Below the pieces are notes generated by a model. The model was not told the DNA's origin, made no database searches, and saw only the letters and a list, made by a program, of their open reading frames with translations. A program made the translations under genes and the position numbers. From assembly GCA_029263395.1 (NCBI GenBank), contig JAJCXO010000112.1, positions 1 to 64,000 of the forward strand: a DNA stretch of 64,000 bases, read 5' to 3'. Shown here piece after piece: positions 8,602 through 47,875 of this stretch (position 1 is its first letter; each line of letters opens with the position of its first letter). The DNA comes from Acidobacteriota bacterium. Its GTDB lineage: Bacteria; Acidobacteriota; Thermoanaerobaculia; Multivoradales; J023.

Positions 8602-8700
8602 CTCTGACAACCCTGGAGTCAGCCTGCGAATCGTTACAGAAGCTGCTGACGATTGGCGCCTGACAATAGCCTGATCGACCCTAGTCGGAGGTGTCGAGAG
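8602..8700 (-). pseudogene. Remnant of the small Cys-rich gene found intact at 27403-27792
   Basis: Bases 8615-8690 match 27400-27410 and 27548-27615 closely (GCGAATCGTTACAGA is identical), with about 130 bases missing between the two matching blocks. Read leftwards the match encodes CQAPIVSSFCNDSQ against WQAPTVSSLCNDSQ in the intact copy, but with stop codons. This is a decayed duplicate and helps define the left edge of the inserted region. Confidence 0.65.
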
Positions 8701-8821
8701 TGCGACCGCCTGCGGTCAGAGCGTGAGTTGGAGCTCTGGAAAAGAGTGGGCTCGGCGTCCGACAGGGAGTCTCTGTAATACGGACGAGAGCTCCCCGGAC
8801 CTCCGAGCCCTTCTAATCGGC

Positions 8822-10228: not shown

Positions 10229-10875
10229 CGAATTCTCCTCGGTCTCTAGGTCGTGTCGAAGCGGGACGACGAATCCGGGTGTGTCATCCAGCGCTTGACA
10301 TTCCAAGGTCTCCGTCTGTTACAGCGCAATCCTGGTCTCGAATCCACCAAACGCTCCATCTAGATGCCTGACAGAGTTCCGTCAGGTCGGTCTCTTGTGG
10401 GTGGCTCGCGATCGCGTCCTTGACTTCGCAACTCGGCGCAAGGTAAGGTTGTGCGGCCTTATCTATCACAACTGCAAGTGAGCCGGTCGATCGAGTCAGA
10501 AGAGCGATCTACCTAATTCACGACAAGTTATCCGGTCTGTGAATACGTTGCGAGAGGGTTTGACGATTTATTGATCTATTACGATTTATCTTCGCGGCCG
10601 GTCCCCTTCTTGGGAGGCAAGGGTGCATGTTGCGGAGAAGGCAGTTAGTTTTTCGCGGTTGTAAGCGGACGTGTGCCGACTGGTATTCGGCATGAATTGA
10701 ATTTGGTGCTGAACTGAGCCTCAAAACGATGAGGAGTCGTCTATCGGGCTTGTTTGCTGGCAGGAATGGAGGACAGGAAGCTACGAGAACGCTTTTTGAA
10801 GTCTCGTGTGAAGATATTCGTATGCAGATAATGTATTGATGGAGGATGTGACGCGTCATCACCACGACGCTGAGC
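10229..10875. promoter_or_regulatory. Divergent regulatory region, lipoprotein / sigma-54 activator
   Basis: A 647-base gap between divergent genes, visibly AT-richer in its right half. It contains the hairpin-like pair CCTGAC (10367-10372) and GTCAGG (10381-10386), and a perfect 10-bp palindrome TGACGCGTCA at 10849-10858, 17 bases before the activator gene. On the left strand 10289-10305 reads with GG and GC ten bases apart, a weak sigma-54-like match. No small gene is convincing. Confidence 0.45.
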
Positions 10876-11952
10876 ATGGTTATTGTGCGGGAACATTTAT
10901 CTCCGATGCTGCCAGCCGCCGCTGAACAGCAGATGCAGGTCAAGCTGACTGCCGTTAAGAAGAACGATAGATCAGAGCCATCTCGAGTCAAAGAGTTTGT
11001 TGGGAAGTCCCCAGCTGTGCGACGTCTGCTACGTGAGGCGCGACTGGCCGCTCAGGGTTCTGATAGTCCCATTTTGATTACTGGCCCCGTCGGCTCTGGC
11101 AAGAGTCACTTGGCCCGGTATATTCATCAACACTCGGCTCGTGCCGAGGGGCCCTTGGCATTTGTTGATTGTGGCACGCTGCCACAGCTCGAGAATAATC
11201 TCTTCGGTCATCGACGCGGAGCCTTCACCGGCGCCGAGCGTAACCTCGATGGACTCCTGCAAAGTGTCCATGGCGGCATCTTGGTATTGGATGATGTCGA
11301 GCGACTCGATCGACCGAAACAAGACTTGCTGCATCGCGTAGTCGTCGATGGGGTGTTCAGGCCCGTCGGAAGTGGCTCGGTCCAGCGGGTCGATATCCGC
11401 TTCCTTGCCACCACCAACGTGGATCTCACGGTTGCCGTCCGTGAGGGCACCCTCGCTGCCGACTTCTTGAGCCGCCTGAGTTATCACGAGTTGCGTGTGC
11501 CACCGCTACAACAACGTCGTGAAGATCTGCCCGGTTTATGTCGAGAGTTGTTAGAGAGGAACTACCAGAAGTTGGTTCGAAAGGGCATCATCGGGGCGCG
11601 GGAAATTGTGTTCGATGACGCCTGTTGGCCCGGCCTCATGGCGCGCACGTTTGTCGACAACGTCCGCGGGCTCGACAAGCTCATGGTGCGCCTGCTCGCG
11701 TATCTCGAAGAGCGGACAGTGATCCGTCCACGCGATATCGACGCTGTGGCGCCGGTCGTAAGTGCTGCGCGAGAACCTTGGTTCGATCAGCCCAAGCCTC
11801 TACGTCTAGTACGGGAAGCCGCCGAACGGGAATACATCATTCAAGTCTGTCGTCATACCCGATTCAACCTGCGGGCTGCGGCTCGCGCCTTGGATATCAG
11901 CCCAAAATGTCTTTACGCCAAATTGAAGCAGTATGGCATCACGCGTCCTTGA
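10876..11952 (+). CDS. Sigma-54-dependent transcriptional activator without receiver domain
   Basis: A 358-residue AAA+ activator. Walker A (GPVGSGKSH) is near residue 70, GAFTGA (the sigma-54 contact loop) near 116 and Walker B (GGILVLDDVE) near 133. The C-terminus (RAAARALDISPKCLYAKLKQYGI) is a Fis-type helix-turn-helix. The ~40-residue N-terminus holds no receiver, GAF or PAS domain, so activity is probably controlled by another protein or by expression level. The start is uncertain (ATG 10876, 10906 or 10933). It overlaps the next gene and a strong sigma-54 promoter match lies at 17568, so it is the likely local regulator. Confidence 0.9.
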   Translation: MVIVREHLSPMLPAAAEQQMQVKLTAVKKNDRSEPSRVKEFVGKSPAVRRLLREARLAAQGSDSPILITGPVGSGKSHLARYIHQHSARAEGPLAFVDCGTLPQLENNLFGHRRGAFTGAERNLDGLLQSVHGGILVLDDVERLDRPKQDLLHRVVVDGVFRPVGSGSVQRVDIRFLATTNVDLTVAVREGTLAADFLSRLSYHELRVPPLQQRREDLPGLCRELLERNYQKLVRKGIIGAREIVFDDACWPGLMARTFVDNVRGLDKLMVRLLAYLEERTVIRPRDIDAVAPVVSAAREPWFDQPKPLRLVREAAEREYIIQVCRHTRFNLRAAARALDISPKCLYAKLKQYGITRP

Positions 11953-11959
11953 GGTGGGG

Positions 11960-13951
11960 ATGAGCGGGCTAAGTTTGAGGAAGTGGCGGCGGCCAGTAGT
12001 GATTTGCTTGGTTTGTCTGTTTTCAATGCTGCCACCGGCTTTGGCTAGGTTGGGGCCTGGAATTCTTGGCAAGCCCGATCCGCCGGTCGAGTGCGGCGAA
12101 GAGGACTCGACCGAGCCGCTTCATCTCCTGTACCTGGATATCTCAGGGAGCCTTAGGTCTCTCGAGCCCAGTGACAAGGAAGGTTGCTTTGAACTCTCGC
12201 CGGATCTGGAGAGCTTCCTGTCTGTGGTGATCAAAGATCCAGCCGCTCAGCAGTCGGACGAGGAGAAGATCGGAAGTAAACTTGAACAAGCGGTTCAAAG
12301 CAATTTGATTCAACTCTTTGTTTTCGCTGAGAATATCAGCGATGTCAAGAAAGTCGACGCAAAGGCTATCGAGCCCAAAGGTCGCTTTTGTGTGCCTCCA
12401 ACTACCAAAGAGAAGGTGAATTCGAAGCTGACAATGGTCCACAAGCCGCTAGTTCATGCTTCGCAAGCAGCTGCGGAATGTAGTCGACGGTTTATCGTCG
12501 CGACACTCGTGACGGACTTGGTCGACAATCCAGGAAAGTCGAATAGACCCACTGGTGAGTCGGTAACAATGCCGGGGAACTCAGATCTGATTGGCAGACA
12601 CAATCGCAGCAATCTACAACTCGACGTGGTAGTCGGGGCGACGTTGCCAAACCAGGTCAAAGATCTGTCACATATAGGGTATTCGCGAGCTGTTTTCGTC
12701 GATCTGCTGCTTGCGGAACTTCCCAAGAGCATCCGTTTTTCCGGCCTGAAGGACCTACCCGAGGATGCACTTCCGGGTGTTCGCACGGAAGCTGCGGTCG
12801 TTACGGCTCGAAGATATAAGCGACTGCGGAAGAGTTCTGCAGACTTACAGATTGACAGCGTGATCAATGGGTGGATCGTGGAAGTACCTGAGACCACGGC
12901 TCTCGAATCGGTCTCGCTGGCTTGTGGCAATCGCCTCGAAGATATCCAACTCGAATCGAGGCTACTGCCAAAAGCTATAGGCGCTAGCAGCAGTGCGTTT
13001 TTTCAAAAATATTTTGTGACAGCTCGAGATTGCAACATTAATCCCTGCTCCGACAATGTAACTCTCTCTCTTCGAGAGACAGGTGGAATGCTTCTATCTA
13101 AAATTGTCGAACAATTTCCAACGTTTCTCTGCAATGGGAGAGTGAGGCTATCGGATCATAGTTTTGGTTCGCTAGGGAGCAAGCTGGATCTGAGTCTGGA
13201 AATCCTGGGACCGGTAGAAAACCGACCAAATTTTGCCGGTTGCCCTATACTTGGAAATGTGAATTGGGACAGGGCAAGCTCTCGACCCGATTTGCAAATA
13301 GTGATGAAGCCGGAAGATGTTCACTCTTTCATAGCAAGCAAGGGAGGGACGCGGTATGGTTGCGAATGCTCGGCAGACCTTTCCTTGCAGCAGGCTAGCC
13401 GCCTGTCTTCTGCCTCCGTGGCTACCATTGTGACCCGGGCGACGGATGAGAGGACTATGCACTGGTCCGATCTCGACGTACTGGAGGGCGATTATTCTCC
13501 TCGTTTGTGGCGCACTATTTTTTTGATCTTCTTGTTCATTGATCTCATCCGACGATTAGTATGGAGGCGTCTGCATTTTGTAGGATGTTTAGGTATTGGG
13601 ATTGGAGTCCTCTCCGTTTTCGCGAGTCGGCCCCCCGGTGTACTGGAAGAGCTGTTAGTTTACTCCGGCGCCCCTTGGCTTCTTCTCCTGGTGATGTGTT
13701 GGTGCTTGGTATTGATTTGTTCTGAGGCCATCGAACGATGGGAGACGATCAAGCGCCTCTGTTTGATGGGACGCTTGAGTCTCGCAAAGGGTTGCGTACA
13801 GCAGTTGACGGCGTTGTTTTCGGGTCTGCTGTGGCTGCTAGCGAGTCTTACAATCATGACGGTTGTCGTGTCCAATCTGGCGACTGAGAGAGGGGATTCC
13901 CTAGTTTTCCAAACAGGTGGCGAGGTCACGTTGACATGCAAGAAGACGTGA
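11960..13951 (+). CDS. Membrane-anchored vWA-like protein A of tubulin-associated operon
   Basis: About 663 residues. ATG 11960 follows GAGGTGGGG and gives a clean signal peptide; ATG 11933, inside the activator gene, is the alternative. The mature N-terminus has LYLDISGSL, a MIDAS-type DxSxS of a von Willebrand A fold, so metal-dependent partner binding outside the cytosol is likely. A long middle region is followed by four hydrophobic helices in the last third (from about LWRTIFLIFLFIDL to ASLTIMTVVVSNL). The same order (signal, vWA, middle, four helices) recurs in the 17599 gene. The 3' end overlaps the next gene. Confidence 0.8.
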   Translation: MSGLSLRKWRRPVVICLVCLFSMLPPALARLGPGILGKPDPPVECGEEDSTEPLHLLYLDISGSLRSLEPSDKEGCFELSPDLESFLSVVIKDPAAQQSDEEKIGSKLEQAVQSNLIQLFVFAENISDVKKVDAKAIEPKGRFCVPPTTKEKVNSKLTMVHKPLVHASQAAAECSRRFIVATLVTDLVDNPGKSNRPTGESVTMPGNSDLIGRHNRSNLQLDVVVGATLPNQVKDLSHIGYSRAVFVDLLLAELPKSIRFSGLKDLPEDALPGVRTEAAVVTARRYKRLRKSSADLQIDSVINGWIVEVPETTALESVSLACGNRLEDIQLESRLLPKAIGASSSAFFQKYFVTARDCNINPCSDNVTLSLRETGGMLLSKIVEQFPTFLCNGRVRLSDHSFGSLGSKLDLSLEILGPVENRPNFAGCPILGNVNWDRASSRPDLQIVMKPEDVHSFIASKGGTRYGCECSADLSLQQASRLSSASVATIVTRATDERTMHWSDLDVLEGDYSPRLWRTIFLIFLFIDLIRRLVWRRLHFVGCLGIGIGVLSVFASRPPGVLEELLVYSGAPWLLLLVMCWCLVLICSEAIERWETIKRLCLMGRLSLAKGCVQQLTALFSGLLWLLASLTIMTVVVSNLATERGDSLVFQTGGEVTLTCKKT

Positions 13952-14757
13952 CATCCTTGGTTTGTTGTCTGGGCCAGCAAGCGTGCGACTCTGGCAGCAG
14001 GCTTGCTAGGCTGAGCGGCACTAGAGCCGCGTTCCTACCCGGTTCGGTTGCTTTCGCCTTGGTCCGAATGGTGGATCATGACCGATGCCCGTCGCCGGAC
14101 GATAGGGCCGGCCAGGGGCGATCGCTTATCCAAGAAGAGATTTGCTTACCGTTTCCGAATGCTGGAAGCAGCGCTCGATCGTCACATACAGGCCCAAGTC
14201 GGGCGACGTTCTTATCCGAGTCTGGATACTTTGATCTTTTGTGTGCGCGCTTGCGGCAGGCCGAGCATCGTCTCTTGCAGGGGAGATCTGAGGCAAATCA
14301 CAGGTGCGCTACCATTTTCGTTGCCCATCTCGAAGACGTGTTCGCAACATGCAGCCTGACGTGTCTTCTCAGATCGGTGTCGTCGCCGGAGCCTGCCGCT
14401 CGCACCGCCGTACTACTCGTTCCACCTGAACTGAAGAAGGGGTTTGGAGTCCGCATCTTGACTACCCTTCATGATTTGGTGGCAGCTCTAGAAAGACCAG
14501 TGCCTCCGACTGCCGGTATTCCGAGTAAGGACGAGGGGCGATGGCCGTTTTACTTGGTTTCAGCTCCCGGCTGCTTCGGAAGCTGCCAGAGCACACCACT
14601 GACGGCTGAAAGCGACCATCATCTTACGGAACTTTCATCGGCTCTCCTGGCTATTATTGCTGATGTGTCGCGAGCATCCTCGGGGAGCTTACCTGACCGC
14701 TCGTTGAGGGAGGTTCTGCCTTTGTGCTCTCACGCCGCTAAAGGGGTGACTTCATGA
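13936..14757 (+). CDS. Uncharacterised protein in tubulin-associated operon
   Basis: A 273-residue ORF overlapping the upstream vWA gene by 16 bases and the downstream zinc-ribbon gene by ATGA. This double overlap is the main reason to accept it. It has no signal peptide or clear membrane helix. The N-terminal half is Ser/Arg/Cys-rich and poorly protein-like; the C-terminal half looks more ordered (LLVPPELKKGFGVRILTTLH, LSSALLAIIADVSRASSG). No family is recognised. A competing frame covers 14048-14359, so a frameshift or later start is possible. It may be specific to this operon type. Confidence 0.5.
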   Translation: MQEDVTSLVCCLGQQACDSGSRLARLSGTRAAFLPGSVAFALVRMVDHDRCPSPDDRAGQGRSLIQEEICLPFPNAGSSARSSHTGPSRATFLSESGYFDLLCARLRQAEHRLLQGRSEANHRCATIFVAHLEDVFATCSLTCLLRSVSSPEPAARTAVLLVPPELKKGFGVRILTTLHDLVAALERPVPPTAGIPSKDEGRWPFYLVSAPGCFGSCQSTPLTAESDHHLTELSSALLAIIADVSRASSGSLPDRSLREVLPLCSHAAKGVTS

Positions 14758-16577
14758 TCCAGCCTCCGGACTCGACCTCGCAATTTGTGAGGATGCCGCC
14801 CCTCCAGTTCGATGATGGCTCGAAGGATTCAGCGGGCAACAGGTCAGGAGATGTTCAGAAAGTGCTCAAGGCTGCTGATGCTCTCCTGCGAGAAGTTGTC
14901 GATACCGCCAGCCGATTCTTCGCCGGCTTAAGATCGGCGGCTGCTTGGCAATCCGTTAGTGGCGCCCGCAAATATTCCAAGCAGCTGAGGGATCTCAGTA
15001 CTGCTCTGTTGGCAGAAAGTCCGGTCTGTACGTACGAGGCACTTCGGCACTGGATGGTGGCCGAGGAACCTACGCAATATTTCCTGCGTCAGGTCGATGC
15101 TTCAGGGCTGGATGGTAGACGTCTCTCTGATCAGCTGATCAATGCTCTACAGCACCTTCGAGGTCAGCGGACACAAGATCGAGACGCTGCCGAGGTCGCG
15201 GCAGCTCACATTCAACACATGGCTGGCCGAGAGCATCCAATACGGTCGGAAGTCTGGCGTTTTTTTCGGCAGGTGCTTGCCAACCACAATCCGGATGATC
15301 GTGTGGAGGATGCAGACTCGCCACGGATTCGGGTGCCGCAGTCGGCGGTTGCGATGGACACATTTGTTGCTTTGCTGTCGCAGCCACCGAATCGGCGGCG
15401 AGCACTATCGAATGTTCTAGCGGCACTTCAAGAGGCTTTACCGCAGGCGAATGCAAGGCAGCCGCCGCCTGCTGCATCGCCGCCAGGAGGCGGCAATGGA
15501 GTTATTCCCGATGACAAGGGAGCACGCGGTCCGACGGGAGTTCAAAAGGTCGAGGAGTCCAAGCTCCGGAAGGCCACATCCGCCTCGACGATGGTGAGAG
15601 AAGCGGCCTCGGGCACAGTGGGTGCCCCGCCTACAATCGACTCCCAGCCGCCAAACACCTTGCCACCGCCCGCCGAGATACCTGAGACCGCAGCGCCTTC
15701 CTGCTGCCCCCCCGTTTCGCTGTTCTTGCGCAATGGCGTCCGCTTGAGTGTTCGTAGTCATTTGACTCGTTTGACCCAGCGAACGGGCAAGCCACCGCTG
15801 CCACCTTCTCGCCCGCGCGAGCTATCCTGCGATACAGAGATCATCCCGGCTCCTATCCTCGATGCGGGTCCCGATCGGTTCGTATGTATCCGAGAGGGTT
15901 TGGCGGTCGAGGATCTCGTCTTCTTGGAGGCAGCGTTCTTGGAGTACAAACGTACCCCACGTGCCCTGCGCCGCCTCGAGCATAGCGACCCCAGCCGCGA
16001 GCTGTGGCCCCCGCTGATCCCGTCGTCGCTACGCGTCGGCTGCGGACGCCGGGAGTGTTCCGCCGATATCTCGCAGCTCGACCGAGCCGAGCGTATCTGC
16101 CCCGGTTGCAACCAGCCGATCCTGTCGCGTTGTGGCAACCCGGAATGCCAGGAAGAGTTCCTCCACCTCGACGCCGACGGCAAGGAAGTGGAATGCCAGG
16201 CGTGCGGCTGTCCGAACGTCAATCAATATTGGACCTGTCCCCGGCACAAAGACGAAGGACCCTTCTCCACCCTTCAGGACCCGTGTTGTCCCGAGTGCAT
16301 CCAGGAGTGGGGTTGGAAGGCCCGTCCGCGGCGCCCCGACCTGATCAGCAAAGGGGTGTTGCAGTGCCCGGGATGTCTCACCGTCGGGCGTCGATCACCT
16401 TTCCGGATCCCTCATCGTGTGCGAGAGTTGTTTTTGTCACAGGAGCCGATCCCCCGCGATCGGAATAAGGAACAGCTGTGTGTCGAAGCGGGATTGGGTC
16501 GTGAGGGATGCTGTCCACAATGCACCTCACAGTTGATTCCCTTCGTGGAAGAGGCGGCGAAGAGGTGTGCGTCGTGA
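14754..16577 (+). CDS. Zinc-ribbon protein sharing the tubulin-like protein's C-terminal tail
   Basis: 607 residues in three parts. A helical N-terminus (~1-230) is followed by a Pro/Ala/Gly-rich linker (~235-320). The C-terminus (~428-605) has many CxxC pairs: CGRREC, CPGCNQP, SRCGNPEC, CQACG, CPRHKD, CCPEC, CPGC and CCPQC. This tail aligns cysteine for cysteine with residues ~892-1075 of the tubulin-like protein at 19519-22758 (CPGCQRS, SRCGNPSC, CPGCGG, CPQCVM, CPRCRTALIPF). It therefore carries the same multi-zinc module without the GTPase part. It overlaps its neighbours by 4 bases on each side. Cytosolic; a scaffold or adaptor role is inference. Confidence 0.75.
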   Translation: MIQPPDSTSQFVRMPPLQFDDGSKDSAGNRSGDVQKVLKAADALLREVVDTASRFFAGLRSAAAWQSVSGARKYSKQLRDLSTALLAESPVCTYEALRHWMVAEEPTQYFLRQVDASGLDGRRLSDQLINALQHLRGQRTQDRDAAEVAAAHIQHMAGREHPIRSEVWRFFRQVLANHNPDDRVEDADSPRIRVPQSAVAMDTFVALLSQPPNRRRALSNVLAALQEALPQANARQPPPAASPPGGGNGVIPDDKGARGPTGVQKVEESKLRKATSASTMVREAASGTVGAPPTIDSQPPNTLPPPAEIPETAAPSCCPPVSLFLRNGVRLSVRSHLTRLTQRTGKPPLPPSRPRELSCDTEIIPAPILDAGPDRFVCIREGLAVEDLVFLEAAFLEYKRTPRALRRLEHSDPSRELWPPLIPSSLRVGCGRRECSADISQLDRAERICPGCNQPILSRCGNPECQEEFLHLDADGKEVECQACGCPNVNQYWTCPRHKDEGPFSTLQDPCCPECIQEWGWKARPRRPDLISKGVLQCPGCLTVGRRSPFRIPHRVRELFLSQEPIPRDRNKEQLCVEAGLGREGCCPQCTSQLIPFVEEAAKRCAS

Positions 16578-17446
16578 CGCGACGGACGCAGCTGCAATCG
16601 CTGGCTTGTGGCTATTGTGAATTCCCTCTCTTACCGTCGGCTGAGCGTTGTCCGCGTTGTCGTCTCGAGCTGGCGCAGTGCCCGGTTTGTGAGTTGCTGC
16701 CCGAGCGCGACGGACGACAAGCGGCCGGGCGGCCACCCGCGAAGTGGTTTCAGCGCAAGGGGCCCTTCTGTCATTGTGATCGTTGTGGCACCCGGCAGCT
16801 CCGTCTGCGCCATCGACCCAGCTTGCAAGATCTCGACGGTAACGTCTGCAGCAATCTATATGGATGCCCTGCCGGAGGGCTCCTCGTGAGTCCCGAGATA
16901 GCTGTCTTGCTGCCGCCCGGCTGTATCGTTTGCCCGGTGTGCCACGATGTCGATCGACCGCCAGTCGACCTCCTTGCGTTCTTGGGTGATGTCCGGCGGT
17001 GTGCGTCTTGTATAGCCGCGATGGGAGACCCACGAGAGTGGTCGACAGAACAGCTAGCTGGCCAAGCATCGTTGAACGGCGAACTGGCTGCACACTTGGA
17101 GCGAATTCATCTGCAGACACATACCTGCAGAATGTGTGGTCGAGGGCCGGGTAAGCCGTCTGGAAACCCGGTTCGGGAAGCCATCGTCGAAGGGGCCGCC
17201 CTCGAGTTGAGCCGCTTCTTGTGGATCGGCAAGCAGGATGAGGAGGCTCGCCGGCTAACGCGAGAGTATTGGCGAGTACTTGGGCCAGACTGGCCACGGC
17301 ATCGCCGTCGCGAGGCTGCCGAGGTCCTGGTCGCCCAAACCGATCCGCGGCATCACCACAATCTCTCACTGCGGCTCGAGATGCTGCTCGAGAGTCTCGA
17401 CCCGAAGGACACCGCAACGGGTGCAGACGGGGTCATGCCGGCGTGA
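16574..17446 (+). CDS. Zinc-ribbon protein, paralogue of the 22759-23763 product
   Basis: About 290 residues from GTG 16574, which overlaps the upstream stop (GTGA) and has GAAGAGG 8 bases before it. Its cysteine blocks CGYCEFP, CPRCRLEL, CPVC, CSNLYGCPAGGLL, CPVCHD and CRMCGRG match in order those of the 22759 product (CGQCDFP, CPRCQREL, CPVC, CTNLYGCPAGGLL, CPVCRD, CRLCGRN). Several structural zincs are expected. The helical C-terminal third is also shared in outline. It follows the other zinc-ribbon gene, as its paralogue follows the tubulin-like gene. Role unknown; probably a cytosolic structural partner. Confidence 0.8.
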   Translation: MTRRTQLQSLACGYCEFPLLPSAERCPRCRLELAQCPVCELLPERDGRQAAGRPPAKWFQRKGPFCHCDRCGTRQLRLRHRPSLQDLDGNVCSNLYGCPAGGLLVSPEIAVLLPPGCIVCPVCHDVDRPPVDLLAFLGDVRRCASCIAAMGDPREWSTEQLAGQASLNGELAAHLERIHLQTHTCRMCGRGPGKPSGNPVREAIVEGAALELSRFLWIGKQDEEARRLTREYWRVLGPDWPRHRRREAAEVLVAQTDPRHHHNLSLRLEMLLESLDPKDTATGADGVMPA

Positions 17447-17488
17447 CGTTACGGAAACACCCGTTTCCTCAGGGTAACGCATGCCGGT
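17437..17488 (+). terminator. Long imperfect hairpin after first half of operon
   Basis: GCCGGC-GTGA-CGTTAC pairs with GTAACG-CAT-GCCGGT, and inside it GGAAAC pairs with GTTTCC around ACCC. The structure begins in the last codons of the zinc-ribbon gene. There is no T-run, so it may be an attenuator, an RNA-stability element or a Rho-independent-like end. It precedes the sigma-54 promoter match. Confidence 0.5.
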
Positions 17489-17567
17489 TTGCTCACTCGA
17501 GCCCACGAGCTTCTTCAAAGTGCTGAAGTAATGCCACTTATAGTGCTGTAGGCAGTCGGCTTGAGAG

Positions 17568-17583
17568 TGGCAAGCTTGTTGCT
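17568..17583 (+). promoter_or_regulatory. Sigma-54 (-24/-12) promoter match
   Basis: TGGCAAGCTTGTTGCT has the invariant GG and GC separated by exactly ten bases, with TGGCA and TTGCT matching the -24/-12 consensus. The predicted start of transcription is about 17593-17595, only 4-6 bases before the vWA ATG at 17599, so the transcript would be almost leaderless. The activator gene at 10876 is the obvious candidate to work here. Confidence 0.65.
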
Positions 17584-17598
17584 TTCTATTGAGTCATC

Positions 17599-19509: not shown

Positions 19510-19518
19510 GAGGCAGGG

Positions 19519-22500
19519 ATGGCGATACCGACGTTGATTGTGGGGCTTGGCGGCACGGGCGTGCTCACCGTACGGGCACTCAAGCGGCTGCACGCCGAGC
19601 AGTCAGCTAGCGAGATTGTACCCGCAGGATTTCTGGCCATCGATTTTGACCGCTCCGCGACCGATGAAGCCACCGATGGTAACTACGCTGATCTCGAGGA
19701 CGGCGAATTCCTCTACCTTCGGCCGCAGAACATTCAGGATCCGTTGGCGAATCTCGATCGGGCGCAGGATGGTCGGCCGGCTTGGGAACGGGTGCACAAG
19801 TGGTTCCCGAGTCGTGAGGATGTCCAGATACCTAAGAGCGAGGTCGAGGCAAACGGTGCTGGGCAATTCCGTGCCTTGGGGCGCCTCGGCCTATTCACCC
19901 ATGTTGTCGAGATCGAGAACGCGCTGCGCAAGGCCCTCGAAGATCTACCGTGCGAATCCGACTCGAAAACCTTCACTCGCGATCGTCGCGTCATCATTGC
20001 GGCTTCTCTTGCCGGCGGAACGGGTTCAGGCATGTTGATCGACATGGCCTACCTGATCCGTCGCCAGCCTTCGCAGCCACGGGTTTCTGCCTACTTGATG
20101 TTGCCAGAGATTTTCGCTGAGGTCGATCAGGGTGGCCGCATTTATCAAAACGCTTACGCTGCGCTGCGCGAGCTGGCGCATTTCAAGGATCAGCAGATTC
20201 CGTTTCGAGCCGACTATTGGCGAGCACCGCCAATTGATATTCCGATCGGGGGAGAAGAGCCGTTCACTCGCATCTTCCTGTTTGGTCGCCAGCTCTGTTC
20301 TGGCGGTTCCCCGGTGGCGGCCGCGTGCAGAAATACGGCGAAAACGATCCTGGCGCAACTCAACCGAACGATTCAGGAAAAAACTCTGGCCGTTGTCGCC
20401 AACACGTCGTCAGCTGATTTTGCGGAAGAACGACGCCGACGTCGAACCCACTGCTTCAGCACGGCGGGGAGTGACAATTTGCGTTTGGGTATGGAGGAGA
20501 TCAATACAGAGGTAGTCCTTCGAGATGCGTTGCTGGCGTTGGGTAGTGACGAGCGCTTGCGAAAGGTTTTCAAGCCAGCTCTCGACGGCGTGACGGAACA
20601 ATCGAAACGGGCGCTCGATCCCACCGACAGCGATCAGGAATCCGAGACCTCCTCGCCAGAGTCTGAAACCGCCGAGTCTGAAAAATCGACCGAAGCTGGA
20701 GAGCGGGCGCGCAGCCTGGCGCGGAAATTCACCGGCGCGATCGAAGTCACCGCGGAGGACGGCCGCGATCGCGTCCTCGCCTGGCTACACTCGGAGCTCG
20801 ACCATGTTCATACCGCCGCTGCTGTCGATATTGCCGAAATCGCCGACCGCGCAGGTCAAGCGATCGAGAATCTCTATGAGATATTGCTGAAGAGCGCCGA
20901 AGAGGAACAACGAGCTGAACGGGGAGGATCGGTCGATCCCCAGTCGGAGCACGCATCTGGCGGCTCACCTCAGGAGCCGCCAGCCGCAGTTGAGGGGCAC
21001 GAGGGAGATGCAAACTCGAAGAGATCTGGCAACTCGCGGAATCAGCCACGAACACTCGAGTCGGTCCTCAAAGACTTCCGCCTCGCGGTGCCACCGTTCG
21101 CTGATATCGAACGGTCGATTCATCGTACGATCACGAACTTGTTGCAGCTTTCCCAGGACGTGCAAAGTCCCCGGGAGATCATGCTCAGGCACCTCTTCCT
21201 TTCCGAGCTGCTCCGCGACTTTCGCTTCTTCATGCTTTTCAAGATCGATGAGGCGCCACGGAATGCTCTGAGGGAGCAATGGCAAGAACTCGAGCGCGTG
21301 CTGTCAAAAAGCACGAAGCAGCCTTGGTGGAAGAATATCTTCTCACCCAAGCAAAAGCAAAAATTGTTGAGTGTCGGTCGCGCCGTCGTCCTGCGTCAGG
21401 CGATCAAGTTGCCCGAGCTAGCCACCTCCCTGAAGGCCCTTTTCCTGGCCCGGGCAGCGGCCGAGCTGCGAGGTCGCCTGCAGCGCGAGAAAAACAAGCT
21501 CGAACGCAAAGTTGAGCAGCTGCGTAAGGTGTGGACCGTTGATCTCATAGACGTCGAGGCGTTACCCAAAAAGCAGCTGCGCGAACTCCCACCAGCGCTA
21601 CGTTCAAGGCTCGATACGTTGCTGCAAGCCAAGGCACCAGAGATCCTTAGGGAAGCCCAAGAGAAGTTACAGTCGCAGCCCGATGACGAGCGCAAGCGTC
21701 GCATTCTGCGCAACATCCTGGAACACCATATCCTCGGCGACGCCACGCTACGTGCCGCACGGTTTCTTGTTGACGAGGACGATGGTTCTGCTGAGACCGC
21801 AAAGAAGAAAATCATTTCCAACTTCGTGGCGGCGCGGCAAGATCTTTTTGTGCGGCGGACGCCGAATCCGCAGCGAAAAGGTTTCTCGGTGATTTTGGCG
21901 CCTGAAGGCATTGTATGGCCCGATGGCACGCGTCGCCTGCATCGTTTTCTCGATACTAGTGCCGAGCAAATTCTAGAGTGTCGTTCGCAAACGGTGAGCT
22001 ATCGCGGTGATCGCCTGTGGTTCTACTACGAGGATCTGTTCAATCCGCCCGAGCACATTCGTAACCTCGACGACTATTACCATTCTTATAAGAGTCAGGC
22101 ACATCCAGAGCTTTTCCACATCGATCGCCGGCTGCTTGAGGACGACAATTTCCAACAGATTTATGCCGGCAGTCACCGTTTGGTGGTGTCCTGCGGCAAC
22201 GAAGGGTGCGGCACCAACATCGCTTACGAAGATCGGACGCTGGCGGTCTGCCCGGGATGCCAGCGTTCGATTCGATCGCGTTGTGGCAATCCATCCTGCA
22301 CCCTGGACGATGTCCATCGACACGCCCGGGGCACCGACAAGTCCTGTCCCGGCTGCGGGGGTTTCAACCATGGCGCTTGGTGGCGCTGCGAACGCCATGG
22401 CAAACAGGAAGTGTTGGTACCACTGGACAAGCCGCGCTGCCCACAGTGTGTGATGTTGCATCACGAAGATCCAGTGGTATACCCGGAAGACGAGATCGGA

Positions 22501-22758
22501 CGCCGGCCGGACACCATCGAAACGATCGAGTGTCCTCATTGTGCTTCGATGCGGCGCGATGACCCGCGACACGAGTCCTTTCGTATTCGGGCGGATTTGT
22601 TGCCGTTCTATCGCCACGGCGTCAACGGCCACGACCGTGAGCGCTTCCTGAGGCTGGCCCAACGCTACAAGCTCCCTGACGACTTTCGCTGTCCGCGCTG
22701 TCGCACGGCGTTGATCCCTTTTCATCATCGGGAGCTACAAACGGAAAGGTACGCTTGA
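19519..22758 (+). CDS. Tubulin/FtsZ-superfamily protein with C-terminal zinc ribbons
   Basis: A 1079-residue protein with a good ribosome site (GAGGCAGGG). The N-terminus has LIVGLGGTGVLTVRALK (nucleotide-binding loop, residues 7-23) and AASLAGGTGSGMLIDMA, whose AGGTGSG (165-171) is the tubulin/FtsZ signature. This fits the Tubulin_2 (PF13809) group of GTPases. The central part holds acidic linkers (~370-400, ~470-510) and a long coiled-coil-like region (~630-720). The C-terminus (~892-1075) has at least six CxxC pairs and is shared with the 14754 product. No membrane segment is seen. It probably binds GTP and may polymerise in the cytosol; the zinc module may dock partners. A catalytic T7-type motif is not evident to me. 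Confidence 0.85.
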   Translation: MAIPTLIVGLGGTGVLTVRALKRLHAEQSASEIVPAGFLAIDFDRSATDEATDGNYADLEDGEFLYLRPQNIQDPLANLDRAQDGRPAWERVHKWFPSREDVQIPKSEVEANGAGQFRALGRLGLFTHVVEIENALRKALEDLPCESDSKTFTRDRRVIIAASLAGGTGSGMLIDMAYLIRRQPSQPRVSAYLMLPEIFAEVDQGGRIYQNAYAALRELAHFKDQQIPFRADYWRAPPIDIPIGGEEPFTRIFLFGRQLCSGGSPVAAACRNTAKTILAQLNRTIQEKTLAVVANTSSADFAEERRRRRTHCFSTAGSDNLRLGMEEINTEVVLRDALLALGSDERLRKVFKPALDGVTEQSKRALDPTDSDQESETSSPESETAESEKSTEAGERARSLARKFTGAIEVTAEDGRDRVLAWLHSELDHVHTAAAVDIAEIADRAGQAIENLYEILLKSAEEEQRAERGGSVDPQSEHASGGSPQEPPAAVEGHEGDANSKRSGNSRNQPRTLESVLKDFRLAVPPFADIERSIHRTITNLLQLSQDVQSPREIMLRHLFLSELLRDFRFFMLFKIDEAPRNALREQWQELERVLSKSTKQPWWKNIFSPKQKQKLLSVGRAVVLRQAIKLPELATSLKALFLARAAAELRGRLQREKNKLERKVEQLRKVWTVDLIDVEALPKKQLRELPPALRSRLDTLLQAKAPEILREAQEKLQSQPDDERKRRILRNILEHHILGDATLRAARFLVDEDDGSAETAKKKIISNFVAARQDLFVRRTPNPQRKGFSVILAPEGIVWPDGTRRLHRFLDTSAEQILECRSQTVSYRGDRLWFYYEDLFNPPEHIRNLDDYYHSYKSQAHPELFHIDRRLLEDDNFQQIYAGSHRLVVSCGNEGCGTNIAYEDRTLAVCPGCQRSIRSRCGNPSCTLDDVHRHARGTDKSCPGCGGFNHGAWWRCERHGKQEVLVPLDKPRCPQCVMLHHEDPVVYPEDEIGRRPDTIETIECPHCASMRRDDPRHESFRIRADLLPFYRHGVNGHDRERFLRLAQRYKLPDDFRCPRCRTALIPFHHRELQTERYA

Positions 22759-23763
22759 ATGGCACCGCGTTTCCTCTTTCGCCATCCCCGTCGAAACGGT
22801 CATGTCTTCATTACCACCGAAGACCCGACCTATCGTTACGAAACGCTGTGCGGACAGTGTGACTTCCCGCTCGAGGCGAAGGATGATTCGTGTCCGCGTT
22901 GCCAACGTGAGCTCGAAGACTGTCCAGTCTGCCGCCAGCGGACCCACAAGCGTTCACCGATCGAGCGTGAGCCAGGGCGTCCTCAGATCGCCTACTGCCC
23001 GGTGTGCTACATCACGCGGCATCCCATCGGCTGGACCAAGTTGGCGTCGCTGGACGCCAGTTTTTGCACCAATCTTTATGGCTGCCCGGCGGGCGGCTTG
23101 CTGCTGCGCACGGACGAGTTGGCGCTGCTTCCGTGCAATGCCTCGATCTGCCCAGTATGCCGCGATCCCGACCTACGCCCGTTGTCTAGCACGAGTTTTC
23201 AGTACCTGCTGCGGCAGTGTTTATTCTGCTCGACGCTGTTCGGGTTCGGGGCCAACTGGTCCCGAGGTTGGTCGGATCAGCCGATCAACCGTCTGTCCAA
23301 AGACTGGGTACCGACAGGCACTGAGTCGTGCCGGCTGTGTGGCCGCAACGATCGCGTTCTCGAATCCGAGAGCCGATCTCAGGATGTTGTGGTTTCGGAA
23401 TCGATCTCCGACGATGGCGTCTTGGATCCGAAGATCGACGAGGGGATCCCAGTCGCGGCCTATCTGCGGGTGATCGAGTTGGCGCGTAGTCTCACTCTCG
23501 AAGTCGACAAGGACGAAGCTACCTTTCGCAGAATCCTCCGTCTATGGTTCGATGCCTCGGGCCGGGAGCCTGAGGAGAGGGAGGGGATGAGTGTCCGCAA
23601 GCTGGTCGATACTCTGGTGCGCGGCACACTGCGGGATGATGTCCGCCTGCCACTGCAGGGTCGCGTCGAAAGATTCGAGGCAGCCTGGCACCGTCATCTC
23701 GGTGTGGGTCTTGGCTATCGCGTGGCGTTCCTTCCTCCAGAGAGCACCAGCTCAGAGCGGTGA
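22759..23763 (+). CDS. Zinc-ribbon protein paired with tubulin-like protein
   Basis: A 334-residue protein starting directly after the tubulin-like stop (no gap), so translation is probably coupled. Cysteine blocks CGQCDFP, CPRCQREL, CPVCRQR, CPVCYIT, CTNLYGCPAGGLL, CPVCRDP, CLFCSTL and CRLCGRN should hold several zinc ions. The last ~120 residues are helical and charged. It is a paralogue of the 16574 product, and both follow a gene encoding the same C-terminal zinc module. This suggests that the two zinc proteins form a fixed pair. Cytosolic; function unknown. Confidence 0.8.
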   Translation: MAPRFLFRHPRRNGHVFITTEDPTYRYETLCGQCDFPLEAKDDSCPRCQRELEDCPVCRQRTHKRSPIEREPGRPQIAYCPVCYITRHPIGWTKLASLDASFCTNLYGCPAGGLLLRTDELALLPCNASICPVCRDPDLRPLSSTSFQYLLRQCLFCSTLFGFGANWSRGWSDQPINRLSKDWVPTGTESCRLCGRNDRVLESESRSQDVVVSESISDDGVLDPKIDEGIPVAAYLRVIELARSLTLEVDKDEATFRRILRLWFDASGREPEEREGMSVRKLVDTLVRGTLRDDVRLPLQGRVERFEAAWHRHLGVGLGYRVAFLPPESTSSER

Positions 23764-23776
23764 AGAGGAAGGTTCT

Positions 23777-24358
23777 GTGCATCTTTGCCCACAAGAATTG
23801 GTGGCGATCGCTGAGATGCTGCTGGTCGCCGCCATACCGGTCGGCCTGGTCGGGATCGCGTTCATGTTGCTGGTCCGAGATGATGGCTGGACGTTTTCTG
23901 ACAAGAAGTCGCCCCGCAGTCGCGAATTGCTGGCCTCGGGGGTGAGCCTCCTGACGACAACTTTGGGTGTAGCGGGTACCATCGGCGGGCTGGCAGCCAG
24001 GGCGGGGCAGAACGTCTGGCTAGCTTTGAGTTTGCTGATCGCGGGTATCGTTTTGATCTCGGGTGTCATTTGTGCAGTCCTCCAGGGAGGGCTCATCCGT
24101 TATGTGCATTGGTGGCTAGGGCAACAAGAAGAACTCACCTCGTCAGAGCCTTCAGCGAAGGCCCTGATGGTCCAGAATCGGCACTTGGAAGACTTGATGG
24201 CTCGTCGACACTTTGCAATTCTTGGCGCTCTAGGAGTTGCCCTGATTCTCGCAATCTGGACCGGTGTCGAGGGTCGATGTGACCAAGCTGACTCGGCGGT
24301 GCCGACTCCGGGCGTCCAGACCGATAGTGGAGTGTCCGATGCCGGAGCGTCTCAATGA
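23777..24358 (+). CDS. Four-helix membrane protein of tubulin-associated operon
   Basis: About 193 residues from GTG 23777, preceded by GAGGAAGG; a longer ORF into the upstream gene exists but lacks a ribosome site, and ATG 23816 is an alternative. Hydrophobic segments are MLLVAAIPVGLVGIAFMLLV, SLLTTTLGVAGTIGGLAA, WLALSLLIAGIVLISGVICA and FAILGALGVALILAIWTG, with a short polar tail. No domain is recognised. It overlaps the second tubulin-like gene by ATGA. It may anchor the cytosolic tubulin-like and zinc proteins at the membrane (inference). Confidence 0.7.
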   Translation: MHLCPQELVAIAEMLLVAAIPVGLVGIAFMLLVRDDGWTFSDKKSPRSRELLASGVSLLTTTLGVAGTIGGLAARAGQNVWLALSLLIAGIVLISGVICAVLQGGLIRYVHWWLGQQEELTSSEPSAKALMVQNRHLEDLMARRHFAILGALGVALILAIWTGVEGRCDQADSAVPTPGVQTDSGVSDAGASQ

Positions 24359-26658
24359 GTCGGCCATGTTTAGTTGTCGGGCTGGGGGGTATCGGCTGGC
24401 GGGCGGCTGCAGCTTGTCGGGAGGCGTATCACCAGATCCCTGAACCGTATCGCCTGCCTGCCAGCTTTCTCGGAATCGATCTGCGGGCCGGTCAAGGTGT
24501 CGCTAAAGATGATGACTTGGTGTTGCTCTCAGCGGCTGAGTTGCGTGAGGTGTTGGCGCACTTGGACACCCTCGTCGACGGTAGGCCAGCTTGGTCCACG
24601 GTACACGACTGGTTCCCGGACCGTCAGATTTTTGCTCATGTCCCGGAGCAGCCAGAAGGTACGGGCCTAGCCCGCCCACTCGGCAGGCTATCGTTATGGA
24701 TTCCAGCCCACACCGAACTGGTTCGAGGAGCGCTTTGGCGACGTTTGGAGGAGCTACGCGGTCGCGCGGGATCGCACGACGACCGGCGCCCGGATGTGAT
24801 TCTCATCGCCTCTGCTTGGGGTGGTACCGGGTCGGCCTTGGCGTTGGATGTCGCCAGTCTGGTGACCAGCTTGACACCCATCGGTCGACAGGATGTTTAC
24901 CTGGTATTGCCTCAGGATTTGTCCTCGAGCGGCCCAGGGGCGGCGAGCTTCGAGAACACTTATGCAACGTTAATCGATTTTGCCCTTGCGCCAAGGTTCC
25001 CTCAACGGGTGATCAAGGTGGACGGGCCGCCGACGATAGACTTGGTTCGCGAACGAGGGCGGACGCTCTCACCCTACGTTGTGCTCCGCCCGAATCTCGG
25101 GCGCAGCTCTGCGGTTGCCACAACTTTGGCTGAGATCGTGACGGCTCGCCTACGGCGCAGCCTAGCCTTGGCGCTCGCTGACCGGCGACAACGCACAGCC
25201 AGGGTTCACTTCCTCCCAAGGCCGATTCGTTGGCTATCGCGGCTGCGGTCGAGTGCCGCGGCATCGTTACCTCTGATCCGGATCGAACAGTTGCTGCCCA
25301 ACCTCGAGACTGTGCTGAGCGAAGAGTTGGTTGCTCAGGGTTTGGAGCAGCCCGAGTCCACGACGGCCGACGGATCGGCCCCGGAATCGATGTTTCGGGA
25401 GTTCGAAAGCGCAGTCGAAGTTCTGATTCAGAAACAGGAGAGCCTGCACACGCAGGTCAAGGCTCTTTTGGAGGCCGAGGAAGACCGCAAGGCTCACGGC
25501 GACGAGAAAGATAGGCTCCATCTCTTGTTGGAGGAACCCGCTGAGATCGACAATCCCAAAGAGCTCCATAGTCTGCTCGACGCTCTCGGAAGTTCCGCGT
25601 TGTACCACAGCCTGGAACGCTCCGCATCGGAGCTGGGGGGCAAGCTGGCGGAGTTTCCGGCAGAGCTCGTCGGCTCGGCTTTCCTGGATCAATGGCGGCA
25701 GCTGAAGAAGCGGCTGAAAGAACAACACCAAAACGGAGGTGATCTCGAGCCTCGGCGCCGGGCCTGGAAACTCTGTGTCGAGGAGATCCTAAGGTTCGAG
25801 CGAGCGCTCGACAACCTCCAGCCCTGGCGCCGGTTGCCTGTTCCTGCGCGGGTGCACCACCGCAACGCACAGATCAAGAAGGCATTGATAGTAGAATCGA
25901 TTGAACTCCATGACTGGCAGCACGCGCTGGACTCAGCTATCCAAGTCGGCGCACTGTTACTGCTGAAGGAGCACCTGCCGCTACTCCCGATCACCCGCGG
26001 GGATCTTGAGGCGACGCTTGAGTTGACACCTGAGCCGGTGGGCGCCGAGCCGGTTGATGAGGTAACAACTGAACGGGAGCTTGAGGCACTGCGCCATTTC
26101 ATTGCTTACCACCAGGAAGCTGCTCCGACCGATGCCGAGAGCATTTCAGCGCGTTTACGATCCTGCGTCGACAGCTTCGGGAGTCTCTTCCTCCCAGATC
26201 CGGGCGCCAAGAGTCTCGATAACTTGATTGCCTCTTGCCGGACCGATGCCTTCGCCGCTCGGGCTGCTTCGCCGTCTTTTCGGTCGTTGACAGTCCTGCT
26301 ACCTGAAGGGCTAATCTGGCCTGAAGGTGAGGACGCCTTGATACAGGTGATCCAACAGCAGGCCAAGGATGCTCTCGGCGTAAGAGCTGAGATCATTCGC
26401 GGTCCCTCGGACAAGATCGTTTGCTATGTGGAAGAGAGTGACCAGCCGTTGCAGAATCTCGAGCCTCTGGCTCAGTATCAGAGCGCCTATAGCTGCCATC
26501 CGCATCCATCGACGCTCCACATCGATCGTCGCTGGGTCGAGAGCGAAGATGGGCGAAGACTCCTAGAGGGGCTTCAGCCCGAGTCTGGAGTACAAAGTGA
26601 TGGGCTGACCATGGAACAAGACGGGTCGGGCGAGACGTTGCCAGGCCCGACGCACTAA
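24355..26658 (+). CDS. Second tubulin/FtsZ-superfamily protein, without zinc tail
   Basis: A 767-residue paralogue of the 19519 product. It keeps LVVGLGGIGWRAAAA (loop at residues 7-15) and SAWGGTGSALALD (tubulin signature near 152-164). Homology extends to the end of the shared core (LLPEGLIWPEG against LAPEGIVWPDG; STLHIDRRWVE against ELFHIDRRLLE), but it stops where the zinc module begins in the longer protein. The middle is a long helical, charged region with coiled-coil character. Two non-identical tubulin-like subunits in one operon suggest a heteropolymer or a GTPase plus a regulator. Substitutions such as GGIG for GGTG hint that nucleotide binding may differ. It is the last gene of the operon. 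Confidence 0.85.
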   Translation: MSRPCLVVGLGGIGWRAAAACREAYHQIPEPYRLPASFLGIDLRAGQGVAKDDDLVLLSAAELREVLAHLDTLVDGRPAWSTVHDWFPDRQIFAHVPEQPEGTGLARPLGRLSLWIPAHTELVRGALWRRLEELRGRAGSHDDRRPDVILIASAWGGTGSALALDVASLVTSLTPIGRQDVYLVLPQDLSSSGPGAASFENTYATLIDFALAPRFPQRVIKVDGPPTIDLVRERGRTLSPYVVLRPNLGRSSAVATTLAEIVTARLRRSLALALADRRQRTARVHFLPRPIRWLSRLRSSAAASLPLIRIEQLLPNLETVLSEELVAQGLEQPESTTADGSAPESMFREFESAVEVLIQKQESLHTQVKALLEAEEDRKAHGDEKDRLHLLLEEPAEIDNPKELHSLLDALGSSALYHSLERSASELGGKLAEFPAELVGSAFLDQWRQLKKRLKEQHQNGGDLEPRRRAWKLCVEEILRFERALDNLQPWRRLPVPARVHHRNAQIKKALIVESIELHDWQHALDSAIQVGALLLLKEHLPLLPITRGDLEATLELTPEPVGAEPVDEVTTERELEALRHFIAYHQEAAPTDAESISARLRSCVDSFGSLFLPDPGAKSLDNLIASCRTDAFAARAASPSFRSLTVLLPEGLIWPEGEDALIQVIQQQAKDALGVRAEIIRGPSDKIVCYVEESDQPLQNLEPLAQYQSAYSCHPHPSTLHIDRRWVESEDGRRLLEGLQPESGVQSDGLTMEQDGSGETLPGPTH

Positions 26659-46585: not shown

Positions 46586-46860
46586 GGCTCGATCTCCTCT
46601 CCTCCTGCAGGTGCCGAAAGACACCCGGAACAATACCTTTTACCTGACCCATATAAGCTCAACCTGAACCCACCACAACTCTCACATCAGCGCGAGGTGC
46701 TCGATGATACGCAAACCAGGACGCAAGGTTCGTATCCCAGGCTCGGGGACCTCGATGTCACAACCCGACGCGGCGCATGATGATACCTTGCGTGACACGC
46801 GACGCAACGATACCGTTACGGCTCCTCGATTCGAAAGAACCCTCTGCAAGGGAGCGCGAT

Positions 46861-47829: not shown

Positions 47830-47875
47830 TGGTGACTCCGGTATCGGTCGGTCTTGTGAGTGGATAACACGCGTC

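Follow-up and report, generated by a model that had tools for sequence, protein, structure and literature searches.

The DNA analysed in this study, referred to below as the window, comprises positions 1 to 64,000 of contig JAJCXO010000112.1 of an Acidobacteriota bacterium (assembly GCA_029263395.1; 64,000 nucleotides). On its forward strand, between positions 10876 and 26658, ten open reading frames (ORFs) were confirmed, which are all of those in a preliminary description that had reported a same-strand cluster of mostly overlapping or abutting genes. They encode a sigma-54 enhancer-binding protein (EBP), two vWA proteins, two proteins of the Tubulin_2 (FtsZl1) family, three zinc-ribbon proteins, a small membrane protein and the protein p273. 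Neighbouring genes overlap or lie no more than 13 bp apart, the sole exception being a gap of 152 bp (17447-17598). The gene content, the predicted tubulin fold, a three-gene core present elsewhere and the shared promoter elements were established by computation, and are described below together with the interpretation that they suggest.

Table 1. Features of the tubulin-vWA cluster in the window (HTH, helix-turn-helix; TM, transmembrane).
Feature	Position	Strand	Description
EBP	10876-11952	+	Sigma-54 activator, AAA+ plus Fis-type HTH; Pfam Sigma54_activat 2.8e-41, HTH_8 2.7e-9
vWA1	11933-13951	+	Called a vWA protein from its YLDISGS motif only; N-terminus hydrophobic, TM segments C-terminal
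p273	13936-14757	+	Unknown protein; 4-bp overlap with the ZnA gene
ZnA	14754-16577	+	Zinc domain homologous to the Tub1 C-terminus, after an unrelated N-terminal part; no tubulin domain detected
ZnB	16508-17446	+	Zinc-ribbon protein, ZnC paralogue; from start codons, the true start may lie downstream, at about 16565-16574
Imperfect dyad	17441-17480		Holds GGAAACACCCGTTTCC (17453-17468); possible activator-binding site or terminator
-24/-12 element	17568-17583	+	Sigma-54 promoter-like, TGGCAAG-N4-TTGCT; lies in the cluster's single large gap between genes
vWA2	17599-19509	+	vWA with YLDISGS; N-terminus hydrophobic, TM segments near 458 and 592
Tub1	19519-22758	+	Tubulin_2/FtsZl1; predicted split tubulin fold, helical insert, C-terminal zinc domain; PF13809 2.7e-51
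ZnC	22759-23763	+	Zinc-ribbon protein; its match on the Azospirillaceae tubulin-zinc fusion is C-terminal
TM4	23777-24358	+	Small multi-helix membrane protein; GTG start after GAGGAAGG; listed ORF from 23591
Tub2	24355-26658	+	Second Tubulin_2 protein, without zinc domain; T4 loop GGTGSA; PF13809 4.9e-16

Gene products of the cluster

Both tubulin-like products, assigned to the FtsZ/tubulin superfamily in the preliminary description, exceed the curated Pfam cut-off for Tubulin_2 (27 bits), with 175.4 bits for Tub1 and 59.4 bits for Tub2. Their genes are the only Tubulin_2 genes of the genome (10.7 Mb), which also has a separate FtsZ and one rpoN match. The EBP has an intact GAFTGA loop and no receiver domain. 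It matches only the AAA-HTH part (145-480 of 481) of the PADLOC model RtcR_PspF2 CARF_AAA_HTH, with no CARF sensor domain; RtcR (CARF-AAA-HTH) furnishes the closest AAA-HTH models in NCBIfam and PADLOC, but the EBP reaches 200 bits against a cut-off of 650.

Three other Pfam matches lie below the cut-off (VWA_2 in vWA2, 0.0019; DZR in ZnC, 0.03; DUF6732 in TM4, 4.5e-4), and vWA1, p273, ZnA and ZnB gave no Pfam match at E up to 1. The coding signature of p273 is weak. The two membrane vWA proteins proposed earlier fared differently: vWA2, whose gene ends 9 bp before that of Tub1, is backed by the weak VWA_2 match and by a hidden Markov model (HMM) of the Azospirillaceae vWA partners described below (2e-9), and vWA1 is assigned by its YLDISGS motif and by layout. 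Joining vWA1 to these partners by profile comparison was tried and failed (hhalign probability 3%). To judge from hydropathy, the vWA domains may face the periplasm. Hydropathy also gave three TM segments in TM4, in place of the four helices first proposed.

The three zinc-ribbon proteins of the preliminary description were found again, with the correction that Tub1 itself also carries a zinc domain, a homologue of the one in ZnA (BLASTP, 5e-24). ZnB and ZnC are paralogues (BLASTP, 2e-25), as are Tub1 and Tub2 (N-termini, 3e-27; C-terminal segment, 4e-16). An HMM made from seven Azospirillaceae tubulin-zinc fusions alone matches Tub1 (2e-79), ZnA (4.8e-25), ZnC (7e-12), Tub2 (5.5e-11) and ZnB (5e-6); on it the tail of Tub1 and ZnA map to one place, and ZnC and ZnB to the next. 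Tub1 and ZnC therefore look like a single fusion split into two genes, ZnA and ZnB like a second set, in which no tubulin domain was detected, and Tub2 like a third set without zinc. Read from these sequence comparisons, the cluster is a series of repeats of one module.

Next to the EBP gene and divergent from it, the window has a gene (8822-10306, minus strand) for a DUF4831 protein (3.4e-15) with a lipoprotein-like N-terminus.

Recurrence of the gene core and of the -24/-12 element

Tub1 matched ten plasmid records, among which only the match in Azospirillum brasilense MTCC4039 plasmid p1 reaches into the C-terminal part. On this plasmid (1.8 Mb; locus L054) three neighbouring genes encode a vWA protein of 1363 aa, a tubulin-zinc fusion (frame of 1586 aa) and an EBP of 348 aa; genes upstream of them (9077-12870 of the locus) read by eye as recF and gyrB. 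With the zinc-domain alignment as query one locus was obtained, that of Azospirillum sp. TSO22-1 (L057), where the order is EBP, vWA, fusion. The zinc domain was found in 7 of 82 Azospirillaceae genomes, including TSO22-1 and A. brasilense (the latter judged by position), and the fusion, the vWA gene and the EBP gene are all present in the five remaining loci. The triad is also present in G975, another Pseudomonadota genome. The three-gene core (EBP, vWA protein, tubulin-zinc fusion) thus occurs in eight loci outside the window, in the order EBP-vWA-tubulin in seven of them, and the co-occurrence of the genes anticipated in the preliminary description holds for this core. An EBP is found in all nine loci, the window included, one of them (L074) having a relic, and tblastn found none in 22 other FtsZl1 loci (0/22; 6.9 to 24.6 kb each). 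In the alignment, the zinc domains of L076 and L077 are without their first part.

Downstream of the TSO22-1 triad (12177-20774) lie genes for a vWA protein (1.8e-11), a 474-aa protein, SrfB (PF07520) and Virul_Fac (PF10139). The SrfB/SrfC neighbours were taken as incidental, since phmmer found none in the other flanks examined.

Sampled genomes were searched for the zinc domain with alignments A1 or A2, in samples that overlap. In the phylum of the window the domain was found in the window's own genome, with no full match in 395 others sampled. Among 289 genomes of the class of TSO22-1 it was found only in TSO22-1 itself, among 398 of its phylum in TSO22-1 and G975, and among 48 of the order of G975 in G975 alone. 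Of the 22 Pseudomonadota genomes listed for that sample, none recurs in the sample from the phylum of the window, and the two phyla are probably different. Partial matches in G106, G384 and G691 (119, 67 and 62 positions) were not taken for relatives. Tubulin_2 itself is found more often, in 19 of 297 genomes in the phylum of the window (15 over the cut-off) and 10 of 72 in its order, its own genome included in both counts. ZnC had no match among the plasmid records, and no relative was found in viral contigs. Tub2 alone gave no match in a pattern search of genome contigs, a search that reaches close relatives only. In a tree of 26 N-terminal tubulin domains, Tub1, Tub2 and seven Azospirillaceae proteins are split from 17 others (support 96/98). 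Tub1 and Tub2 group together within it (89/73), a pairing that is unsure because Tub2 forms a very long branch.

The promoter-like element at 17568 agrees with the -24/-12 consensus at 11 of 12 positions; the window holds no second site of this score. Taken alone it proves little, because chance would give about 0.7 of them over the entire window; when the 120 nt upstream were shuffled 1000 times, no shuffle reached its score. The window and shuffles have similar numbers of sigma-54-like sites with two mismatches (34 against 29.8), so that single sites mean little and the argument depends on the element turning up in several loci. In eight loci the 120 nt upstream of the vWA start codon were scored, a site being counted if it had at least 9 of the 12 positions with GG and GC intact; the vWA start codons of L057, L073 and L075 were set manually at inner methionines. 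Seven of the eight loci have a site: the window (11), L077 (10), and L054, L057, L073, L075 and L076 (9 each). The six Azospirillaceae sites are placed at -50 to -64 from the ATG. L074 is the sole scored locus without one (best score 6). It keeps before its vWA gene a 292-aa EBP relic without Walker A (18016-18894, minus strand; weak match to Sigma54_activ_2, 5.8e-7) and is, as far as its sequence can be read, a natural loss of the switch.

Shuffled regions reach 9 of 12 in 1.1 to 5.5% of trials per region. The chance of seven sites in eight loci would be about 2e-10 if the loci were independent, or about 6e-9 for six in seven without L054, and the true chance lies above these figures because the loci are related. 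Among 136 upstream regions of predicted genes of the same loci eight reach 9, including those of two of the vWA genes themselves and of the L073 tubulin gene. None of 17 vWA-like genes of other FtsZl1 loci (picked by motif, at least one of them doubtful) reached 9, and no site of 9 or more was found in seven regions before the EBP gene or between the EBP and nSTAND genes. A poorer site in G975 (9 of 12, at -89) was examined later and left out of the probability. For the dyad at 17441-17480 no counterpart was shown elsewhere.

The element divides the cluster into EBP, vWA1, p273, ZnA and ZnB before it and vWA2, Tub1, ZnC, TM4 and Tub2 after it. Sigma-54 control, as first proposed, is supported by the -24/-12 elements common to the loci and by rpoN in the genome. 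The further proposal of assembly on demand finds support for the second half of the cluster, behind the promoter at 17568, and not for the first half, since the 569 bp that precede EBP-vWA1-p273-ZnA-ZnB contain no site above 6 of 12.

Predicted fold of the Tubulin_2 proteins

In the 2010 paper on the family, T6-H7 and the C-terminal domain of tubulin are given as not identifiable in Tubulin_2 proteins, and a reviewer asked about their polymerisation (PMC2875224). The T1 and T4 loops of the window proteins are GLGGTG and GGTGSG in Tub1, and GLGGIG and GGTGSA in Tub2. When a profile of the 26 tubulins was compared with the PDB, mostly coiled-coil or helical-bundle chains were retrieved, with no tubulin in the best 60 of 75; a fold search was needed.

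AlphaFold2 models were built on 23-row alignments. The pLDDT (predicted local distance difference test) of the N-terminal 330 or so residues is mostly 60-93, with dips (below 50 in Tub2 at 230-249 and 275-294), and that of a C-terminal stretch (about 790-870 in Tub1 and 640-740 in Tub2) mostly 70-88; the middle is mostly at or below 55. VIA-align matched the Tub1 model to CetZ1 (4b46; Z 25.9, root-mean-square deviation (rmsd) 4.2, 310 aligned of 330, model range 3-862) and the Tub2 model to CetZ (3zid; Z 25.3, rmsd 4.1, 299 aligned of 360, model range 2-719), and Foldseek matched Tub2 to CetZ2 (4b45, 1.1e-6). Both models are thus predicted to have the tubulin core that the preliminary description had assigned to these proteins. 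Coverage was read from first and last residues only, not residue by residue; since coverage of CetZ on this scale seems to need both tubulin domains, the C-terminal domain also appears to be present in the models.

The elements of the Tub1 model follow each other as strand 313-322, helix 325-342, a helical insert, strand 789-795, helix 801-818 and strands 822-828 and 832-842, an order that fits a tubulin C-terminal domain split by the insert. In tubulin nomenclature, the insert would lie between S7/H9 and S8. CetZ tubulins are alike in predicted fold and are the best PDB matches, but about 446 (Tub1) and 310 (Tub2) residues are inserted between strands of the C-terminal domain, and identity to the CetZ chains is 13-16%. 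The models suggest that FtsZl1 proteins may have the whole of tubulin, its C-terminal domain being interrupted by a large helical insert. This bears on whether and how these proteins polymerise, the point doubted by the 2010 reviewer (PMC2875224). The Tubulin_2 group was set aside as divergent in another study, as given in the portion of it available (PMC9871819), and no experimental study of the family was found among the literature matches listed.

A possible membrane-anchored tubulin response and competing readings

Tentatively, and as a possibility rather than a probability, the cluster is read here as a Psp-like, sigma-54-inducible, membrane-anchored tubulin (FtsZl1) response system. The grounds are that the three-gene core recurs, the EBP is without a sensor domain and specific to one branch of the family, the -24/-12 elements are common to the loci, rpoN is present, all five zinc and tubulin proteins of the window match the HMM of the Azospirillaceae fusions, a tubulin fold is predicted and nSTAND genes stand beside four of the seven Azospirillaceae loci. 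In the Psp response, PspF is without sensor domain and is inhibited by PspA until membrane integrity is lost (PMC3128695). A sensor-less sigma-54 activator and a promoter before membrane-protecting genes would be common to both, as far as that account goes; the likeness is one of working only, since none of the ten proteins gave a PspA/IM30 match (Pfam, E up to 1) and the effector would be tubulin.

The EBP being sensor-less, its control must be in trans or by EBP level. On the simplest reading of the two sides of the promoter, the genes before it would form a basal half for sensing and locking, with ZnA/ZnB as the putative lock, and those behind it an inducible half for the scaffold. In the resting state the sensor-less EBP would be produced together with vWA1, p273, ZnA and ZnB and kept inactive in trans, as PspF is by PspA, its likeliest holder being the tubulin-free zinc module. 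A disturbance of the cell surface would be sensed by the membrane vWA proteins, the zinc/tubulin scaffold would be drawn to the membrane, and the EBP released. The freed EBP would then drive the promoter at 17568 and yield a burst of vWA2, Tub1, ZnC, TM4 and Tub2. Tub1 and Tub2 would assemble on GTP, and the scaffold would dock through its zinc tails to the vWA membrane anchors, with the long helical inserts projecting from the tubulin body. Such a scaffold might patch, seal off or remodel the membrane, most likely as protection from an invader or from envelope damage. The switch is supported by sequence and by recurrence; the lock, the inhibition in trans, the trigger, the assembly by polymerisation and the purpose are what we infer.

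A bolder form of this reading, which we hold to be somewhat unlikely, is that of a tubulin polymer that controls its own genes. The scaffold would hold the EBP, assembly at the membrane would free it and more scaffold would be made, with ZnA/ZnB as the resting lock, in a conflict or envelope-emergency system of distant lineages, probably of two phyla. If true, a bacterial tubulin would here be wired directly to transcription.

Several points weigh against an inducible tubulin response. The promoter lies only 31 nt before the ATG used in the window, nearer than in the relatives. Each of the six Azospirillaceae EBPs that have Walker A departs from GAFTGA (DAYTSS twice, DAYTSA, DAYTGA, GAYTNA and GAFTSA), and changes at the central F or T of the loop are described as weakening or mostly abolishing activation (PMC3162934, in part). 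The altered loops keep the central Thr and an aromatic residue. In Tub2, alone among 26 sequences, Ala replaces the final Gly of T4, and Tub2 may therefore be the less active partner of the pair. Mean pLDDT is low (61.1 for Tub1 and 59.8 for Tub2). The vWA frame of L076 (996 aa) is without C-terminal TM segments. The binding partner of the EBP, which would be the zinc/tubulin proteins, is a postulate. A PADLOC search with nine window proteins (TM4 left out) matched only the EBP (AAA-type) and Tub2 (GajB, E 0.07). Finally, no nSTAND was found among the 20 window proteins scanned with Pfam, which are part of the window genes.

The last two points bear also on a strict counter-invader (anti-phage) system, in which nSTAND-like or vWA sensors would act with a tubulin scaffold that confines the invader or kills the cell altruistically, and the GTPase of known tubulin systems would be replaced by a transcriptional switch. 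We consider it unlikely. In its favour, the gene divergent from that of the EBP encodes nSTAND_NTPase5 in four of the seven Azospirillaceae loci (1.9e-26, 1e-13, 1.9e-21 and 2.2e-12), and two of these four proteins also have a metallophosphoesterase domain. Among counter-invader systems, STAND NTPases that bear effectors of the calcineurin and other types are a described theme (PMC8195603, in part), and the nSTAND neighbours are a hint of conflict with invaders. The presence of the system is patchy. The Firmicutes GAP1-N2/DO-GTPase conflict systems described by Kaur et al. (2020) combine two coiled-coil tubulin genes with a pair of vWA proteins, of which one has TM helices and its vWA domain outside the cell; zinc ribbons are on the GTPases (PMC7159879, in part). 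On a Meiothermus plasmid, a vWA-Tubulin_2 pair shares a row of genes with Swt1-HEPN and brxL, but its tubulin is on another branch of the family in the 26-domain tree. No nuclease, toxin-like or pore domain was identified in the cluster itself (Pfam on ten proteins, PADLOC without TM4), nor was any nSTAND seen in the scan of window proteins just given.

In the GAP1-N2 systems a doubled tubulin with two vWA proteins had thus already been described, and the pair is not the unfamiliar addition that the preliminary description took it for. The window differs from them in that no GTPase was found, zinc ribbons are on or beside the tubulins, and a transcriptional switch takes the place of the GTPase. 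GAP1 and the FNIII-repeat gave no Pfam match in the ten proteins, the coverage of those exact families by the library being unconfirmed. The terms 'sigma-54', 'sigma54' and 'enhancer-binding' were not met in term searches of the main text of that paper, for which a listing counts one 'sigma-54'; one general remark on NtrC-like ATPases occurs in it (PMC7159879).

It is distinctly unlikely that the cluster encodes a constitutively made FtsZl1-type machine for remodelling the membrane or for vesicles, such as was put forward in 2010, and that the EBP is only a local regulator lacking special feedback. The adjacency of Tubulin_2 and vWA genes is a general theme of the family (PMC2875224), seen again in further loci of this study, and both window vWA proteins have TM segments, as such a machine would have it; the common -24/-12 element and the branch-specific EBP point instead to conditional expression, and the sporadic presence noted above (7 of 82 genomes in one family, and no full match in 395 others of the window's phylum) is unlike housekeeping. 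With the FtsZl1/Tubulin_2-vWA systems of that paper the window shares the long helical middle, the adjacent vWA-type gene and a canonical FtsZ elsewhere, and it differs, as far as they are described there, in an EBP kept across loci, -24/-12 elements, zinc domains and a second tubulin (PMC2875224).

It is highly improbable that the EBP-like AAA+ protein is mainly a remodelling ATPase that disassembles the tubulin scaffold, with the -24/-12 elements serving other activators: the altered GAFTGA loops and the Walker-A-less relic kept in L074 would fit, but the C-terminal HTH region is retained in the EBP alignment, the locus in which the ATPase motif is gone has no promoter element, and the loop is GAFTGA in the window and GGFTGA in G975.

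The cluster also differs from the MoxR-vWA ternary system, since its AAA+ protein is a sigma-54 EBP and not MoxR. A MoxR gene is found at 46777, in a separate cluster of MoxR (AAA_3, 7.9e-64), vWA and vWA-TPR genes (46777-52265) that resembles an ordinary MoxR-vWA cluster. No OmpA, kinase or GTPase match was obtained in the cluster (Pfam, ten proteins, E up to 1), the EBP being the only protein with P-loop matches. Tubulin_2 with vWA, and a doubled tubulin with two vWA proteins, are already known; an EBP-vWA-tubulin-zinc cluster was not met in the literature searched, with preprints and most subscription journals lying outside. The role of Tubulin_2 (FtsZl1) was left open in 2010 (PMC2875224, in part). 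The common promoter and regulator tell when the system is made, so that inducers can be screened by reporter, and the small three-gene version in the soil bacterium A. brasilense is an experimental handle.

Other loci of the family have neighbours of their own. On Meiothermus taiwanensis plasmid pMtWR-220 (1-14765 of the locus) a trio of vWA, Tubulin_2 and hypothetical genes is preceded by DUF1156, Swt1-HEPN and ATP-binding genes and followed by brxL, in a BREX-like island; the term tubulin is absent from the main text of a 2026 BREX survey in the form available (PMC12839542). A second large TM-bearing protein is encoded downstream of the main Tubulin_2 gene in L034 (3553-6798), L035 (11874-14645) and L038 (5206-8418), that of L034 having a partial Tubulin_2 match (8e-14) and a T1-like loop, GLGKHG. 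A membrane-tethered pseudo-tubulin may be a partner in other FtsZl1 systems. On plasmid p2 of Azospirillum sp. TSA2s (7916-22952 of the locus) a Tubulin_2 gene is found amid three caspase-family, three OmpA-family and two DUF4384 genes.

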